NCBI GenBank assembly: GCA_002786025.1
Contig: NHNW01000027.1
Span: 186,001-250,000, forward strand
Direction: 5' to 3'
Length of the DNA: 64,000 bases
Origin: Zasmidium citrigriseum
Taxonomy: Eukaryota > Ascomycota > Dothideomycetes > Mycosphaerellales > Mycosphaerellaceae
How positions within the stretch are numbered: position 1 is the stretch's first letter; every line of letters begins with the position of its first letter. The position numbers and the translations under genes were made by a program. The notes beneath the pieces are model-generated. The model was not told the DNA's origin and ran no database searches. It saw only the letters and a program-made list of their open reading frames with translations. Of this stretch, positions 53,919-64,000 are shown one piece after another.

Positions 53919-54758
53919 CTACGGGCTTTCCTCATCTAGACGCAGAATAAGGCATTTCTCCCCTCCCTCGTCAACTTCCAACGAAACAACCTCATCCTCG
54001 TTCTCATCAGCAATGAGAGAAAGCTCGTCCGGAGTAGCAGGCAATGCGTCAACCTCATCATCAGCCTTGCTCCCATCGTCCTTGCCCATGAAACCAGATT
54101 TAGGAACATATTGATCCGCCACGATCTTCTGCCTCCGCCAGCCTCTGTCGGCGATCACATGTAGTTGGTATGCAAACACAATATCCTGCTCCGTGCGAGA
54201 AGAATATCGATGGCCAATCTCTCTTTCTGCTCCTATCTCTGCTCCTGCGGTCACTTGCTCGGTGATTGGTAGGCTGGCCCCAGCTTCGCCTGATGTAGAC
54301 GAGGTTGTTTCTTTAGACCAGCTCAACCCTTTGGCGATCTTCAGACCACTTATCATATAGACTGGCTGCCGGCCGAGAAGACCGGAGCTCATCGTGGCTT
54401 TGACCTTGGTTTCCTGTGCTCGGGAGGCTGCATATTCGTCCGAAGGGTCCCGGCGGAGTGAAATCGTCTCAAGGCATGAGACTGTGTATGTTGAGCGAAT
54501 ATCTCGTCCTACTTTCGTAGACAGCTTGGCATTGGCGACTTCAAGGAACTGGGCCCAGACGCTACTTGAGAAGCCGTGTTTGGAGGAGTTGCTTAGTTCG
54601 GCTTCCAGCTCGGTATGAGTGACTGTTTCCAATGGTCCAGTGGGTTCGCTGAGAGGTTTCAGTGGTCTGAAGGGATCGGCTATGATGGTGCCTATTGTCA
54701 TCGCATCGCCTGGGTGTGTCGTCAGATTTGGTGGAAGGATGTATGTCTTGAGAGCCAT
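53919..54758 (-). CDS. Gasdermin-like pore-forming cell-death protein
   Basis: Single exon, 279 residues, close to the 250-280 usual for fungal gasdermins. The pattern fits that family: an opening with GTIIADPFRPLKPL; SSVWAQFLEVANAKL; the amphipathic strand pair around VYMISGLKIAKGLSWSKETT; a Gly/Ala-rich turn; and RTEQDIVFAYQLHVIAD, which resembles the strand before the end of the pore-forming domain. From about residue 215 a Ser/Asp/Glu-rich tail follows (DDGSKADDEVDALPATPDEL), a plausible cleavable inhibitory segment. Fungal gasdermins are cytosolic and form plasma-membrane pores after proteolysis. The gene directly upstream on the same strand encodes a subtilisin-type protease. The call rests on pattern, size and context, not on a database match. 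Confidence 0.7.
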   Translation of the reverse strand: MALKTYILPPNLTTHPGDAMTIGTIIADPFRPLKPLSEPTGPLETVTHTELEAELSNSSKHGFSSSVWAQFLEVANAKLSTKVGRDIRSTYTVSCLETISLRRDPSDEYAASRAQETKVKATMSSGLLGRQPVYMISGLKIAKGLSWSKETTSSTSGEAGASLPITEQVTAGAEIGAEREIGHRYSSRTEQDIVFAYQLHVIADRGWRRQKIVADQYVPKSGFMGKDDGSKADDEVDALPATPDELSLIADENEDEVVSLEVDEGGEKCLILRLDEESP

Positions 54759-55024
54759 GGTCTTGACCGGCCGCTACCACACACAGAGGTCGGTGGCCAG
54801 AATGTCGGAGAACACTGGTGCTGTTGGAGTTTCGAGCATTGTGCGGCTGAAGAGGCCGCCTGGCACGCCACATGAGCTGTCGTCACAGCTAATGCAGCAG
54901 CAGCTCGTGGAAGAAGCCAACGCCGGGCGACTCCTCCGTGGTTTGGCTGCAGGTCAGTATAGCAAGTATTTTCAGCTCATGAGTAAATTCCTACGGATGT
55001 TGAACAGCAGAAGCTGTCTGCTGG
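54759..55024 (-). promoter_or_regulatory. Spacer between protease and gasdermin-like genes
   Basis: 266 bp separate the protease stop from the gasdermin-like start, both read leftward. It should contain the protease 3' end and the gasdermin promoter. No gene or clear TATA box is seen. Confidence 0.4.
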
Positions 55025-57964
55025 CTACGACACCAAAGCAGCATAATCTAGTATTGTCTTTCTGTCGATTTCCGATTTGTTGCAGAATCCAACGGCACTC
55101 AAATACCACGATCTCTCATTGATCTTGCGAGACATGGTGCTGCTGCGGAACATCTCTCGCATGCCATGTCGTGTCCGCATCTTCTCCAAGGTAGTATTGT
55201 CGTTTGAATCAGGGTGGCACATCTTAGTCGCGTCTAAGACGAGCGCACTAATCGCCGCTGCCACCGGTGTCGCAAATGAAGTTCCCTCAAGAGGTTGTAC
55301 ATCATGGCCATCTTGAGAGAAGGACGGTATATCGACTCCAAGTGTGCCAATGACATCGGCCCCTGAGTAGTCGGGAGGAGCGTTGAAGCCGACGAACTCT
55401 CCTTCATGAGTAGTCGCTCTGATGGCAGTGACAAACTCATGACTTGCGGGAAAGAGCTCGCCATGATCGCCGCCGAAGTTCGAGGCCGCGGCGAAGAACA
55501 AGACAGCATCTTTTCGCTTTATTATGGCGTTCGAAATTGCAGTCGAAATAGCCCGCGACTCTTTCTCCTGCGGCCATCCGAACGACATGGAGACAATGTC
55601 AGCGTTCATTTCGTCCACGGCCCAATCGATGGCCTACGTAGGTCAGCAAACATCTCTTGCTGCCTGAAGTGCCAAGTGACCTACCTCTGCAATGCGTTCG
55701 TACGAGTTGATGAAGTCAACATCATTCTTTGCAACTCTCGCCACGCATACATTGGCCGACGGAGCAATGGACATGGCGGTTGCAAGGACCTGCGTTCCGT
55801 GACCATCTTCATCAAGTGGATTAGCAGAACTGTCCACAAAGTCTCTCCAACGATCTTTGAGCCGATTCTGGCGGGCCTTCTGTGAGAAGAAGGTACTAAT
55901 TGGGTCGTAGCCAGTGTCCAAGATGGCGATGGTGGTTCGTCGGGATATTTGCTCCTTGTAGAAGACACGGAGATCTCGATTCAGCATCGAAGAAGTCAGC
56001 CGACTGATCCAGTCTTGCGTGGCGGAGCTACAAGGCTTTGGTCAGAGAGCGATGTGATGTTAGGTTGATTTTGGTAGACGTACCCTGTCCCTCGTGAGGC
56101 TGCAAGTTTCGTAGGTTGCTGTGATAGTGGTGTGGGAATGTCACGATCTTTGCGCTGCCAGAGAGCACGTTTCTCTTGGGCCTGCACAAGCTTGGTGACA
56201 GACGCCAACGGTGAGACCACATGCGTCCAGAGGAGAGACTTTCTCCCCGTCGCATCAGCTTCAGGGTTCTTGAAAATATCTCCTTTCAGGCAGATGGAAA
56301 CTGCCTCTCGTATCCGTTTGCGCACGACATCAGCCTGAATTTCGAGCAGCGGCCAAGCTGGGTCTTCAATGGCCCCTTGACAGTAGAGCAATTCGTCATT
56401 GAACCTAGCCTGCCAGTCTGAACCATCTTCCGCGAAGGTCAAATGCTCGTCGCTGAAAATACTGGCAAGGACTATTCCCAGAGCCAGTATCCTAGGTGCC
56501 CAGTGAACTGATCCTTCAAAAGGAATAAATTCTCTTTCAGTGGGAGGTTGACTGTGATCCCCAAAGGCCATCTGGACGAATGGATGAATAGGGCTGATGA
56601 AGCCCTTTTGATCGGATCTCCGGCCCCATCTGGGTGCCTCCATCATGAAGTATATTGAGTCTGATGTCCACCTATTCGCCATTATTTTGGTGTCGTAGAA
56701 CTCCCATACGGATCTTGCTACGCTGTGTGCCAAAAGGATCTTTCCATCGTCAGAAAGGATGTAGTCTTTCAAGACTTCTGAAAGCGCTATTCTGGGCTGT
56801 GCTAGAAGCAGCTGGTCTGCTTGAATCACATCGTGCAGGTCATATAGGTGCTTCTCACTGATGCGGAGCTGATGGCGACCAGCACCTCGACGAAGTAGTA
56901 GGAGTCGACAGAAATCTCCGGCACATATTGATAGGAGCGATTGAGCTGAAGATTGATTCGATGGCCTTGGCGGGTTGTGTTCATCGGAGACACAGAACTT
57001 CGGACGAGCTTTGGACTTTGAGGATCTGCATGTGTTGGCATGAGCGAAGCTGCGAACTGGTGGACGAAATGGACTTACCTCGCAATACGAAATCTCACAC
57101 AGATCCAACGGCCCATAGATTCATTGACATGAGATTTGGAAGCCTGATAGACGGTGTCGATGGTCAGTTCGCCGTCTTGAATTAGAGGGTCTCGAGTAAG
57201 TTTTAGGTTGGCTTGATGCAGACGGGTGGTCCTGTCAAGCGTGGCTGCAGAAGTGCATTGACACTCAATAGATTGCCTCAAAACATCGTGCAATGCGGTG
57301 TAAGCATCAATTGGAAGCTCCTCGGGTGAATCTCGATGCGTTGTCGACTTATTGGGCGACTGTTGCCGTCTGGGAAGGAGACGGTCCAGGTTCCTGAACA
57401 GAGCCTTGCGAGGGATCTCATTGCGGGCTAGGTACTTGAGTGGATATGACAGGGAGCTCAAGGTGAGTTTGCCTTTCGACAGAGCGTATAGTCTTGGAAA
57501 GTCCGTCTCTGGCACACACTGTCGGCTGGAAAGGGCTACGGACCCTTTTGGCGGCCACTATAAGGCCCCTCAGTATCGGATGTACATACTGCAGTTGACG
57601 GACAGCTCACAGTGCAAACTTTTTCAAGATCTCGCAGATAGTGTGTCAGATCTCGTGCTGATTTCGGTCTATACCCTGCCGGCGGCTGATCTAACTCGTC
57701 GGCGATACTGTACAGGCGTGTGGCAAGATCGATCAGCTTCGGCGCCTCGACAGTAGCTGGGCCATTTTCGGCAACGTTTAACGCTACCTTGCTCAGTGCT
57801 CGTGTAGCGGTGCACGCAAATTCGACGATGGAGTCGTCCATAGGGTCATCGGAGGGAAAAGGACCAAGAGCATCAAGCAGGCGCCATCGATGTTTCAGCT
57901 CCGTTGGTCCGTGCACACGGCTCGACTTCACTTCCCATTTTCCTTCAACTTCTTGCCTTGCCAA
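55025..57964 (-). CDS. Intracellular S8 subtilisin-type protease with helical N-terminal region (HET-Q2-like)
   Basis: Five exons on the minus strand: 57590-57964, 57079-57518, 56084-57025, 55685-56027 and 55025-55633, giving 2709 nt or 902 residues; all joins are in frame. The C-terminal third is a complete subtilase: Asp623 in TTIAILDTGYD, His662 in EDGHGTQV, Asn752 in FFAAASNFGG and Ser819 in LEGTSFATPVAAA. The first 580 residues lack a signal peptide or propeptide and are mostly helical, for example VEAPKLIDLATRLYSIADEL and ISEKHLYDLHDVIQADQLLL. SVARSVWEFYDTKIM and APRILALGIVLASIF in the middle resemble the DUF7580-type region of fungal cell-death proteins. In Podospora the paired HET-Q2 protease cleaves the gasdermin HET-Q1; the same role is inferred here. 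Confidence 0.85.
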
Positions 57965-58106: not shown

Positions 58107-61100
58107 ATGGAAGCCCCAAAAGATGTTGCACTTACGCTAGAGGAAGCCGGGACGATATGCCGCCGTACGATTGAATCTGTTCAAGACTGCGAGCTGCTCA
58201 ATCAGCAGCAATGGGCTCGTCATCGGCTTATTGACTTCAATCACTGGGCTGATGGAATTGGACTTTTTGCGGACGGCCGAAATTCGCTTCATCACCGCCT
58301 GCGCGAGCATCTGGATGCGGAGAATGTCTTCATTTCAGTGCTTGGTGCTCTTTCGGAGGTCTTTGCGCGGCTCTCTTCTCTGGCAAATGGCGGCAGTGGG
58401 TTGCCTTCTACCGACGAGGTGTCACTTGGCGATCTAGATATAGGTGATCATCCGCCTATGTCGTTCTCGCCCTGGTCGTCTGACGAGGACTCTGATCACC
58501 TCAGTGAAAGCGATGATACTACGACACCGGACAGTGGAATGGCGTTCTCCGTGGGTGAGGGCTGCAAGGACGCAGAAAATCTTATCGAGAGGCTGTTAGA
58601 TCTTGCGAACCTCGTCAGAAAGGCTGGGGCTTCATCACGCATCACGAAAGCGGATATGGTATTCGAAGCCGCCAACTACGAGGAGCTTCGACTTCATCTG
58701 ACTTTCTTGCTCCAACGGGCAAACGTACGATCAATGGGGAACGAGAACGGAGAAACTATCAATTTGGCAGCCGCTGATGCAATCGATGCTACTAATATGG
58801 AGCAGCTCAGAGCAGAGCAGCAGTCTTTGGTAATTGCGAATCTTCGGCGAAGGCATCGATTTGAATATGCACGAAAACGTGCCAACACGCTTGCTCGTCA
58901 GCCTCAGAGGAGCACAACGATTCCAGTCGAGAGGATCTCGCCCAGTCCGAATCAACCAATTACTCAAGGTGCTGTGAGCGAGGCAGTTGACCTACCAGTT
59001 CAAGATGCGGAGATCCCTCCGGCGGCACCTCTCAAAGGTCTTCCTAGTCAGTCATCAGCGTCTGCGATGACGCATTTGCAACTTCCTCCTTTCCACGAGT
59101 CTGGCCTTGACTTTGCTCCTCCTTCGACATATGCGGCCAGTTCCACTCAATTTTCAATTGTACAAGACAAAGTGGAATATCCGAAAGCACCAAAAGTCAG
59201 CTTACAGCATTCGTTCAAATGTCCATGTTGCTATCAAGTCTTGCCAAAAAAGATTGGGCATAGCAGCAAGAATTGGAGGTATGTCGTCTCGCGGTCTCAC
59301 GGCTCGCTAACTTTCGCCAAGCTAAAGCACTCATTCTATAGAAAGCATGTTGCGCAAGATTTGTTTCCATACAGCTGCCTTGTTGATGGCTGCAAAGCCG
59401 ACACATCATTCTTCATCAAGAAGAAGGACTGGAAGATCCACATGGAAGAGAACCACCAAGTGATCTCCCACTGGGAATGTCCACTCTGTCATGATGGCCA
59501 CGAGTTCCTCGACTCCACCTCACTGGAGAAACATGTGCAGCAATCTCATGGCCGACTTTTCGATCCGCGAAATTTACACAACTTAGTCGACATCTGTATG
59601 TCCGATCTGTAATCTACCTCAAGGAGAACCTTCTGATACAAACGCCTTCATGGACCACCTGGCCGAACACATGCATGACTTCTCTTTGCTAGCCCTTCCG
59701 TGGAATGATAGCATACCAGATCGTGGTCAAGAGATGTCTCTGCCATATGGACAATCTTTGAATCGCTGGCTTGACGAAAGGGAAAGTCACATTCCAGTAG
59801 AGGTCATAGCTACGATTAGTCACGGATATCCCTTGAAGGCTCCTTTATCAAAAGGAATGGGTGGCGAGGTTCTAACCGACGACGAGTACTTCGACGCTGC
59901 CGACGGAGGATCACGATCTTCGGACGCCGCACTGGCATCAAGGACTGGTCGTTCAATATTGACCGAGATGAGGCCATCGAAGACACCCGACGTCGTCCCT
60001 TTTCCACTTGAATCAGTGGCAAGCGTTGACAGCGATACAGCTGACGAGGAAAGATCTGGTAGAGCGTGGGCCGGAACCGTCGACAGTCCCTGGGATCCTT
60101 GCATCCTGACTTTGGATGGCGGGGGTGTCAAGACATACAGCAGTTTACTAATACTGAAATTTTTGATGCAGGAGGTGCGGGACTATGAGCGACACTACGC
60201 CCAGAACTCGGAATTTGACGACAGGTTGCCAGGAGTCGGCGCATCCGAAGGAGGTGTCTCGATTGGAGACCCGCATGAAGAGCCATTGCCCTGTCATTAC
60301 TTCGACTTCATGTTTGGAACATCCACAGGCGGTATTGTCGCGATCCTCCTTGGCCGACTTCGCATGACAGTGACCTCAGCTCTCGAACTATTCCCCAGGC
60401 TGGTGGACGACATGTTTGGTCGCAGGCGATCGAGAATACCTCTCATGACGAAGTATTACCACGAGCCTCTGGAAAAAGCGATTAAAGACATCGTCAGTGC
60501 ACGGTGTCAGGAACACGAGGAGTGTGACGGAAATGACCTGCATGCGTGGCCTGACTACCGGATTGAACTCGATTTATTCGTGAGTGAATCCGCCTCGCTG
60601 TCTCAGAGCTCTTCATAGCTAATCCTGTCCTCGCTGTAGAGTCCTGAAGCCCTCTTCCACGTCGACAGACCACGAGTATGTCAAACGTGCTGTCTTACAG
60701 CAACGCACGACGAGAATATCTCGGAGGCATACATGCTGCGATCGTATCCTCACTACTATTCTGAAACGGCACCGAACTGGATCGGAAGATACAACCAAGG
60801 GGCAGATGCATTGCCAATCTGGCAGGTAGTTCGTGCAACAACGGCGACTCCCTTCTACTTCGACATGGTCCAAGCCGTGGTGAATGGAGAAGAGAAGAGC
60901 TTCAAGGATGGAGGGATCAGAGAAAACAACCCATCCGGAGCCGCTCTGAGTGAGTTCCATGCTCTCTACGAAGGAGAGGCTAGCTCGCCCGCGCTTTTGT
61001 TGAGTGTTGGTACTGGCAAGCCAAATCAAGTTAATCAATTCCGGGACAAGACCTTAACTAGCGTTAACCCAGTTAGCAAGTTTCTGGAGAAGAGAGCCGT

Positions 61101-61630
61101 GATTCAGAATTTACTCATCAAATACACGGAGGGGGAAAAACAACACAAGATGATGAGAGAGCTTGCCCGTGGTGAGAACACATGGTACAAAAGGTGAGCA
61201 CCAAACAACAGTTATGCATGTATTCAGCTGTACCACTAACGGAGGTATCTTGCGCAGACTGAACGTTTCCACCGGCCTTGAAGACATGCAAATGGACGAC
61301 TGGCAGAGAGGTCAATGGGTAGACCCCATGTCCAACCACCCCCGAACAGCCCCTGGAGGAGCCACCCTCACGAAGATAGAAGAAGCCACAAAGGCATACT
61401 TGCAAAGACCGTTCGACGCTGAGAACGATTCGTACGCCTCTCCGAGAGTCATGCTCCGACAAGCAGCGCAGAAACTCGTCCTCCAACGCCGCGCTCGTGA
61501 GCAGATGGGAGGCCCGAGATGGGATGTCTTCAAGGGAGAGGATCTTGCGAAGATGCCATCAGCTCTGCCGAAAGTGAAGGCGGGCTCAGACGTTCCTTGG
61601 TGGGACGATGGGGGCGAGAAGAGGTTCTGA
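58107..61630 (+). CDS. Zinc-finger / patatin-like phospholipase protein
   Basis: In the preferred model exons are 58107-59534, 59587-60579, 60640-61193 and 61258-61630, giving 3348 nt or 1115 residues. The N-terminus (LTLEEAGTICRRTIESV, EHLDAENVFISVLGALSEVF) is the helical region common in fungal NLR-type and related proteins. Cys/His clusters follow (FKCPCCYQVL, WECPLCHDGHEF, CPICNLPQGE, HLAEHMHDFSLLALP). The patatin domain has LTLDGGGVKTYSS (oxyanion loop), FGTSTGGIVA (nucleophile Ser in GxSxG) and FKDGGIRENNPS (catalytic Asp), so it looks active. It should cleave membrane lipids on activation. A frame change near 59590 needs either a 52-nt intron with donor GTGCAG or an indel; see findings. 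Confidence 0.8.
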
Positions 61631-61890: not shown

Positions 61891-64000
61891 AATTTAACAA
61901 AGTTTTCCTGAGTGCCACGTGTTATCTTCGGTGCCCCTTTCCTTTCCTTCTATCTTCCCTTTCTCATCTTTAACATTAATACCTTACTATTATACCTTAC
62001 TATCCTTACTATCGTAACCCTTATCGTCGATACTATAGATAGTATTAAAGATATTAATAGCCCGCTATCTTAAGAGGAAGATAACTAAGCACTAGCTACT
62101 AAAGGTGTAATTAAGTTAAAGGAGGGGGCTATCTTTAGCTATATTAACGAGGTTAAGATCGCTATATAGGTAAAGGTAAGAGAGGAAGGATAGGTTAAGT
62201 ATATTACTAAAAGGGACAAGTAGAGGGTATTTATTAGGTGCCGTAGTTCGAGTAACTATCTATTTATCTATAGAGCGTATATCTATAATACTAGATTTAA
62301 GATTAGCTCGCTAGTAGATAAGTATACCTATACTAGATCTAGATACTAATACCGATAACCCTTAGCCTTTATATCTACGATACTAGCGGAGGTTCTAAAG
62401 ATTATAGATATTATAAAGGATACTCTAGCGAAGGATATTCGAAGCGTCCTTTTTAAGAAGTTTAAGTAGTCTATACTACTACTCTAGTACTATCGATTAC
62501 GGGCTAAGATCTTAAGTAATAATTAAGTCTTAAGACTATTAAACTTTAAGAAACTACTAGCCTATCTAAGAGCGCTTAAGGACGCTAACCCTAGAGTTAT
62601 AACTAAGCTTAAGGTTAACGAGAAAGGATAGTTTCGAAGGGTGTTTATATACCCTTAAACTATAGTACCTTCCTTCGTATACGGCCTAAGGATAGTAGCC
62701 TTTAATAGTACCTTTCTTAAGGATTCCTTTAAGTAGGTATTTCTCGTAGCTATTAAGCTAGATTATAATAATTACCTCTAATTACTAGCCTAGGGTATCG
62801 TTAAGACTAAGAGCGAAGATTCCTAGCGTTAGTTTATTAAACTCTTTAATAAGGCGTTAGGCCTAGACTTCTAGAAGGATATCTACTTTACTAATCGCTT
62901 TACTATTATCTTAGACTACTATAAAGGACTCCTTAACTACGACGACGAGTTTCTAGGTTACTACTACTACTACTATATCTAGTACCTTTATCGTAATATC
63001 GTATAGTACTTTAAGAGTAAGGTAGCTATAGATCTTATCTATCCGATTACTCGAGCTTCTATAGACGCTACCTATAATAAGCTACTTAAGAAGGTTAGCG
63101 AGTACTCTCTAGAGGTAGCTAAGTATATTAAAGGACTAGATAGAGCGACGTTTATAAAGAAGGACGTTATAGCTACTAGCGTAAGGCGGTACGATAAGAT
63201 TACTAGTACTATTATAGAGTCTTAGAATTATATAATTATAAAGGATAGGGAGCTATCTACCCTTTACCTTCTTAATACTCTATAGAACCGAACTATATAG
63301 CTATACGCCGAGCGCTATTAATAGGCTATAGATCGGATAGTAAGGGCGTATAGTTTAATACTAGATTTACCTAGGTAGTTACGCTATAGAGCTAATATCT
63401 CGTAGTTTACCCCCTACGCTAAAGAGTAATTAAAGAAGGCTACTTACTTCGCTAGTAACTACTCTATTTAGCTCGATAGTACTAACCTTCCTATTATAGT
63501 ATAGGTATAGTATAACCTACGAGTAGATATTATTAGGGTTAAGTTTAAACCCCCTCGCTAGAAGCCTATTAGTATAACTTGCTCTTATAAGCGCCCTTAG
63601 GACTATTAGATTCCTTATAGCTATAGACTAGTAGTCCTTAATAAGCTTAGACTACGAGTAGTAGACTATATTAGTAACTACTAGGCTACTAAAGACTAGT
63701 AGATTATATATAGTTAAGGTTAAGACGTAGAAGATAAGGATCTAATTAAGTAAGTTAATTACCTTAATAGTAATAGACGTATAAGGCTAATCTAACTCTC
63801 TAAGCTTCTCTTAAAGCCTAAGTTAACGATAGCGCTAGCTATAACCCTTCGTTAAGGAAGGCGTTAAACTAAGAGGAAGGATTATAACACCTACGTTAGC
63901 TCCTTTAAAAGGAAGAAGGGTAATCTACTAAAGTATAGTAATTATAATTAGCCTAGGTATAAGAAGCTAACCTATACTAATCTACCTATATTATAATCTA
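61890..64000 (+). mobile_element. RIP-degraded Mutator-like (MULE) DNA transposon, truncated by the window edge
   Basis: The stretch is AT-rich, full of TA dinucleotides and nearly lacks CpA and TpG, and has no open frame of useful length. Read with stops ignored, plus-strand frames show MULE transposase features in order: a FAR1-like start (about 62200-62290); a core with VPSFVYGLRIVAFNSTFLKD and QVFLVAI-like strands (about 62650-62760; Lys and Gln codons often now stops); a SWIM-type region with SITCSYKRPQDY (about 63570-63610); and near 63870-63990 a Lys/Arg-rich tail with what was probably a CCHC knuckle. Stops are mostly TAG/TAA from CAG/CAA, as RIP produces. Terminal inverted repeats were not located. 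Confidence 0.75.

Follow-up and report, generated by a model that had tools for sequence, protein, structure and literature searches.

The stretch of Zasmidium citrigriseum DNA analyzed here (64,000 nucleotides, hereafter the window; C69:186001-250000 within a 44.4-Mb assembly of 148 contigs) carries on its minus strand the genes of a subtilisin-type protease with a DUF7580 region and of a fungal gasdermin, and on its plus strand a third gene that diverges from the protease gene. The gasdermin is encoded by a single-exon open reading frame (54758-53919, minus strand, stop codon counted in), the protease gene occupies positions 55025..57841 and ends at 55025, and 266 bp (54759..55024) lie between the two. 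The initial annotation of this DNA had described a 279-residue protein at exactly this distance downstream of a subtilase on the same strand, and the arrangement was confirmed. Q2-like, gasdermin-associated proteases are S8 or CHAT proteases encoded no more than 10 kb from a gasdermin gene, and the distance found here agrees with this.

The gasdermin and its C-terminal tail

The 279-residue protein returned no match at E <= 1 in a Pfam scan and has no Pfam family, and a single-sequence search of the PDB sequences gave marginal matches only (RCD-1, 0.062 and 0.21); profiles were therefore needed. Profile A4 related the protein to HET-Q1 with an E value of 1.8e-5, and a bacterial gasdermin matched the window family weakly (E 0.0038, profile). 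In its predicted fold the protein has the pore-forming sheet of gasdermins, and RCD-1 was the closest solved relative by fold as well as by sequence among the matches listed. Both sequence homology to RCD-1/HET-Q1 and a predicted pore-forming fold, two traits of the fungal gasdermins (fGSDM), were thus found, in support of the initial assignment, for which the fold had been named beforehand as a check. All homologues with an organism name were fungal, the closest being from Cercospora beticola (67%). A 485-aa Fusarium sp. homologue (P0041) was considered as a possible gasdermin fusion and discarded, as its N-terminal extension showed no subtilisin motifs by eye.

The pore-forming domain spans about residues 1-212 (54123..54758, minus strand), as delimited by the AF2 strands and by the VIA alignment range (3-219). 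It is followed by a low-confidence linker (residues 213-240, 54039..54122; pLDDT <50) that contains a conserved boundary motif (YVPKSGFMGKDD in the window) and represents a candidate cleavage region, and by an acidic tail (residues 241-279, 53922..54038) delimited from model and alignment, in which a helix (243-253) and a beta hairpin (256-275) are predicted with moderate confidence. From residue 213 on, 21 of the 67 residues are Asp or Glu; when the protein's residues were sampled at random 100,000 times, 0.013% of the samples held at least this many. In an alignment of 40 rows, consisting of the window protein and 39 of the 44 listed homologues, Asp and Glu outnumbered Lys and Arg more than twofold in the C-terminal part of every row. 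The Asp/Glu-rich tail previously described is therefore genuine, but it is not merely acidic, since the linker is followed by a helix and a hairpin within residues 243-275.

Conservation falls toward the tail, with a mean majority frequency of 0.58 for residues 1-212, 0.45 for 213-240 and 0.42 for 241-279. Position 224 is Leu or Met in 40 of 40 rows, preceded by F, L, M or A, and sits in a motif resembling Y-x-P-K-x-A-F-L-x-x-D; the gasdermins on contig C79 and in a fusion on contig C64 (see below), though divergent, show a comparable hydrophobic-then-acidic stretch (ALFDD and AFLFDDD). HET-Q1 is cut at F238 and sheds 40 residues (PMC10989679; here and below, the cited articles are drawn on in excerpt). 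By inference, the window gasdermin would be cut beside F223-M224, and the tail after residue 240 is a candidate inhibitory piece.

The DUF7580-Peptidase_S8 protease

The protease gene was modeled with five exons (57841-57611, 57518-57079, 57025-56084, 56027-55685 and 55633-55025, minus strand) separated by four GT-AG introns of 92, 53, 56 and 51 bp; with the ATG at 57841 as start codon, the product has 854 aa. A Pfam scan of the whole model returned Peptidase_S8 at 2.6e-20 (residues 568-796; domain at 55199..55939) and DUF7580 (PF24476) at 5.2e-9 (residues 155-498; 56203..57287, spanning intron 2, with a shorter single-exon match at 56203-56814), so that both profiles expected for this protein were recovered. 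Scanned exon by exon, DUF7580 scored 8.8e-9 and the S8 domain was split into two matches of 1.4e-4, just under the cut-off, and 6.5e-12. The catalytic residues D575, H614, N704 and S771 are intact. The subtilase of the initial annotation thus stands with its catalytic set, while its length of 902 residues was revised: that reading begins 48 residues further upstream, and all four catalytic positions are shifted by exactly 48. The homologue search returned two proteins among the candidates scored, both carrying DUF7580 and S8, one from C. beticola (59% over residues 255-852, the alignment crossing introns 3 and 4), the other from Trichoderma viride (28% over residues 14-835). The shorter start is favored because the T. 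viride alignment begins at residue 14.

Inspection of the N-terminus by eye revealed no signal peptide, consistent with the earlier description of the enzyme as lacking a secretion signal. The whole-protein scan gave nothing at E <= 1 besides the two families, and hence none of the ANK, TPR, WD40 or NACHT/NB-ARC sensor parts, which are common, not obligatory. In the exon 2 region (57075-57557, minus strand) a weak match to CATRA-C (caspase and TPR associated C-terminal domain) was observed below the cut-off (E 0.051), and it vanishes when the whole model is scanned. A single DUF7580 sequence gave no credible match against the PDB (Kelch-like 7, E 0.93), and a kinase-like nature of this region is neither shown nor excluded.

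Recurrence in the genome and the divergent partner gene

Profile searches of the genome gave at least 19 Peptidase_S8 matches, merged into 16 genes, and eight DUF7580 matches, seven of them above the cut-off. Three gasdermin queries converged on four sequences, namely the window gene, C64:401434-402243, C64:422548-423273 and C79:264823-265677. One of these queries, a Metarhizium homologue meant to reach more distant gasdermins, recovered the same four loci alone, although highly divergent gasdermins might escape such searches, and a profile scan of 31 loci added none. DUF7580 runs into S8 in three genes (window, C64 and C79), and these loci carry all four gasdermins found; no gasdermin was found within 20 kb of the remaining S8 genes (12 of 16). 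On C79 the gasdermin gene is convergent with the protease gene, about 0.2 kb from its S8 match, and one of the two C64 gasdermins shares a predicted frame with a second S8 domain. CHAT proteases, considered as alternative activators, gave no match in this genome in a search that does not handle introns and whose control was positive in 1 of 14 genomes.

The C64 fusion (C64:419570-423399, plus strand; L013:1571-5400) consists of three exons that yield one predicted frame of 1243 aa, comprising in order an N-terminus and fingers of the partner type, an S8 domain whose D, H, N and S motifs begin at 627, 680, 773 and 840, a gasdermin domain from Met954 and a long poly-aspartate run at the end. Exon 3 gave 53.6 bits with the gasdermin profile, and no stop codon interrupts its frame across the S8 and gasdermin parts. 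Judging from the sequence, the locus appears to join partner, protease and gasdermin in one protein, and Met954 could also serve as a separate gasdermin start. No full-length relatives were met among the 7986 candidates sharing most words, which is not evidence of absence; the search returned five proteins covering 16-27% of the query, with S8 in all five and DUF7580 in three.

The divergent partner gene starts at 58107 on the plus strand, back to back with the protease gene, and was read in two parts. The first (58107..59612, intron 59279-59341) encodes an N-terminal region and C2H2 fingers, the second (59587..61630, introns 60580-60639 and 61194-61257 judged by eye) a further finger and a patatin-like phospholipase. 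The first open frame of this gene, 501 codons long with a 63-bp intron read through, served as a genome query and gave 11 matches, self included. Those adjoining DUF7580 are located on C69, C64 (E 6.5e-55), C79 (1.2e-7), C65 (twice, 1.2e-7 and 4.1e-7) and C54 (0.017); a partner-type C2H2 gene thus accompanies six of the seven above-cut-off DUF7580 loci, always divergently and with 1.3-2.9 kb between the matches. No partner match was found near DUF7580 on C116 or near the sub-threshold DUF7580 match on C61, and weak partner matches on C85 and C94 (E 0.002 and 0.04) lie away from any DUF7580 match.

In a pairwise comparison, with E values computed for the 11 sequences only, the window and C64 partners shared 32% over 482 aa (7e-69), the C54 partner matched those of the window (1.7e-7) and C65 (1.4e-12) with the N-terminal part included, and the C79 partner had the finger region alone in common (4e-6). 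The C-termini vary, being a patatin part in the window, S8 plus gasdermin on C64 and a ULD_2 ubiquitin-like domain at one C65 locus. The latter gene (L029:1270-4152, minus strand) adjoins a DUF7580 gene with no S8 match, so that the DUF7580/C2H2 pair also exists without a gasdermin found nearby.

The reading frame of the window partner shifts between the two parts within 59587-59612. Read by eye, 59535-59612 holds either a 52-bp GT-AG intron (59535-59586), whose splicing would cost one finger its second histidine, or else a frameshift or an error in the assembly. Farther along, the GC content drops abruptly at 62000-64000 from about 0.48-0.53 to about 0.33-0.36, which suggests an AT-rich, possibly repeat-derived block adjoining the cluster.

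Interpretation of the three-gene block

The sequence shows a gasdermin by family and predicted fold, an S8 protease with its catalytic residues in place, and an arrangement of genes met again elsewhere in the genome. It is probable that the window encodes a fungal gasdermin together with an intracellular protease dedicated to activating it, both as parts of a three-gene block. From these observations we infer a mechanism that extends from latency and sensing through the cut site to pore formation and death, and that assigns a role to the partner. The DUF7580-S8 protein would be made in the cytosol and kept latent, as required by the presence of protease and gasdermin genes in one cell. A trigger sensed via the DUF7580 region, or by this region together with the divergent C2H2-patatin partner, would switch the protease on, which would then cut the gasdermin linker at about 213-240, most likely next to F223-M224, and remove the acidic tail. 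The freed pore domain would assemble in the plasma membrane and kill the hyphal cell, and the patatin part of the partner may attack lipids in parallel.

A number of points weigh against this proposal. Confidence in the gasdermin model is middling (mean pLDDT 70.7, pTM 0.57), perforin, complement and pleurotolysin-type pores are mixed with gasdermins from rank 7 in the Foldseek list and from rank 9 in the VIA list, the HET-Q1 structure 9uv9 is absent among the 50 matches listed by either program, and HET-Q1 reaches just E 0.54 with profile A1 alone. The model of a Dactylonectria homologue (pLDDT 53.7) did not yield a fold for DUF7580, its structure matches being all subtilisin-type proteases among the 50 listed, and no sequence feature pointing to protease latency was found. 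The gasdermin/protease module claimed at the outset is supported by the protease neighbor at two other DUF7580-S8 loci, but one of the four gasdermins, the unfused one on C64, has its nearest S8 match 14 kb away, farther than the limit of 10 kb applied in published surveys. The window partner gene may be interrupted, the genome counts of matches are lower bounds, and the gasdermin/DUF7580-S8 pairing was observed in one genome.

The alternative that survives best, plausible although somewhat doubtful, holds that the true unit consists of the divergent DUF7580 and C2H2 genes, into which the S8-gasdermin arm is plugged as just one of several outputs. Three of the six DUF7580 matches with a divergent C2H2 gene have no S8 or gasdermin found, and the differing partner C-termini also argue for this view, whereas the C54 genome match is weak and rests on the 11-sequence comparison, homology beyond the fingers is strong only between the window and C64, and the finger similarity by which C79 matches can be generic. 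This alternative is not incompatible with the dedicated-protease reading. Close to an even call, in our judgment, is the broader proposal of a modular immune unit in fungi, based on the DUF7580/C2H2-finger divergent pair, to which the gasdermin arm would contribute one output among exchangeable effectors: S8 plus gasdermin, patatin, or, in one copy, a single polypeptide of sensor fingers, S8 and gasdermin that could cut itself and form a pore without a partner.

A het-Q type allorecognition (heterokaryon incompatibility) locus, at which strains differ in the gene carried, is unlikely. HET-Q1 is indeed a gasdermin cut by the S8 protease HET-Q2 (PMC10989679, PMC12881547), and the Podospora anserina system resembles the window in its 278-aa gasdermin and in the short C-terminal piece removed (PMC10989679). 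However, HET-Q2 has 388 aa (PMC10989679), against 854 aa with a DUF7580 region here, and the window adds a divergent third gene. Moreover, het-Q1 and het-Q2, which the initial annotation took for neighbors, are idiomorphs, so that a given strain carries one or the other at the same locus (PMC12881547), whereas here a single contig holds both genes, and the combination of gasdermin with DUF7580-S8 recurs at two further loci. A protease sharing the cell with its gasdermin must also be latent, while HET-Q2 meets HET-Q1 only after fusion. The proper parallel is the general gasdermin/protease gene cluster. Very improbable is the independence of the two genes, with another substrate for the protease and, for the gasdermin, an activation such as the allelic co-assembly of Neurospora crassa RCD-1, which reviews describe as triggered by co-expression of two variants (PMC10197012, PMC12881547). 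That RCD-1 is the closest solved relative speaks for this reading, although it lacks the protease neighbor and acidic tail seen in the window. Against it, gasdermins co-occur with DUF7580-S8 at three of three such loci with none found elsewhere in the genome, one locus fuses S8 and gasdermin, and the linker followed by an acidic tail is kept across the family.

The gasdermin/protease pair is of an already published kind; the new elements are the repeated three-gene setting and the fusion. Clave et al. 2022 reportedly described, as relayed in reviews, clusters of fungal gasdermin and Q2-like protease genes. These resemble the window in the adjacency of a gasdermin to an S8 protease with an extra N-terminal region, whereas DUF7580, the C2H2 divergent partner and the S8-gasdermin fusion are unmentioned in the review passages. 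In the literature searched, the term DUF7580 had no occurrence, and no mention of the C2H2 partner or of the fusion was met in the excerpts, though Clave et al. 2022 may already cover some of these features; "fungal gasdermin" and "zinc finger" each occur once in PMC13304501 and PMC9950082, as a term match only. Bacterial clusters likewise place a gasdermin beside a protease gene (PMC10197012), although the window gasdermin is just distantly related to them. A protease gene in the vicinity is a feature of about 80% of fungal gasdermins (PMC10197012, PMC12881547, PMC10989679), and the stimuli that activate the putative fungal sensors are a major open question according to a 2025 review (PMC12881547). 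The recurring divergent partner of the gasdermin-linked protease names a candidate sensor, and the predicted one-gene fusion on C64 offers a system for direct tests of activation, cut site and inhibition.
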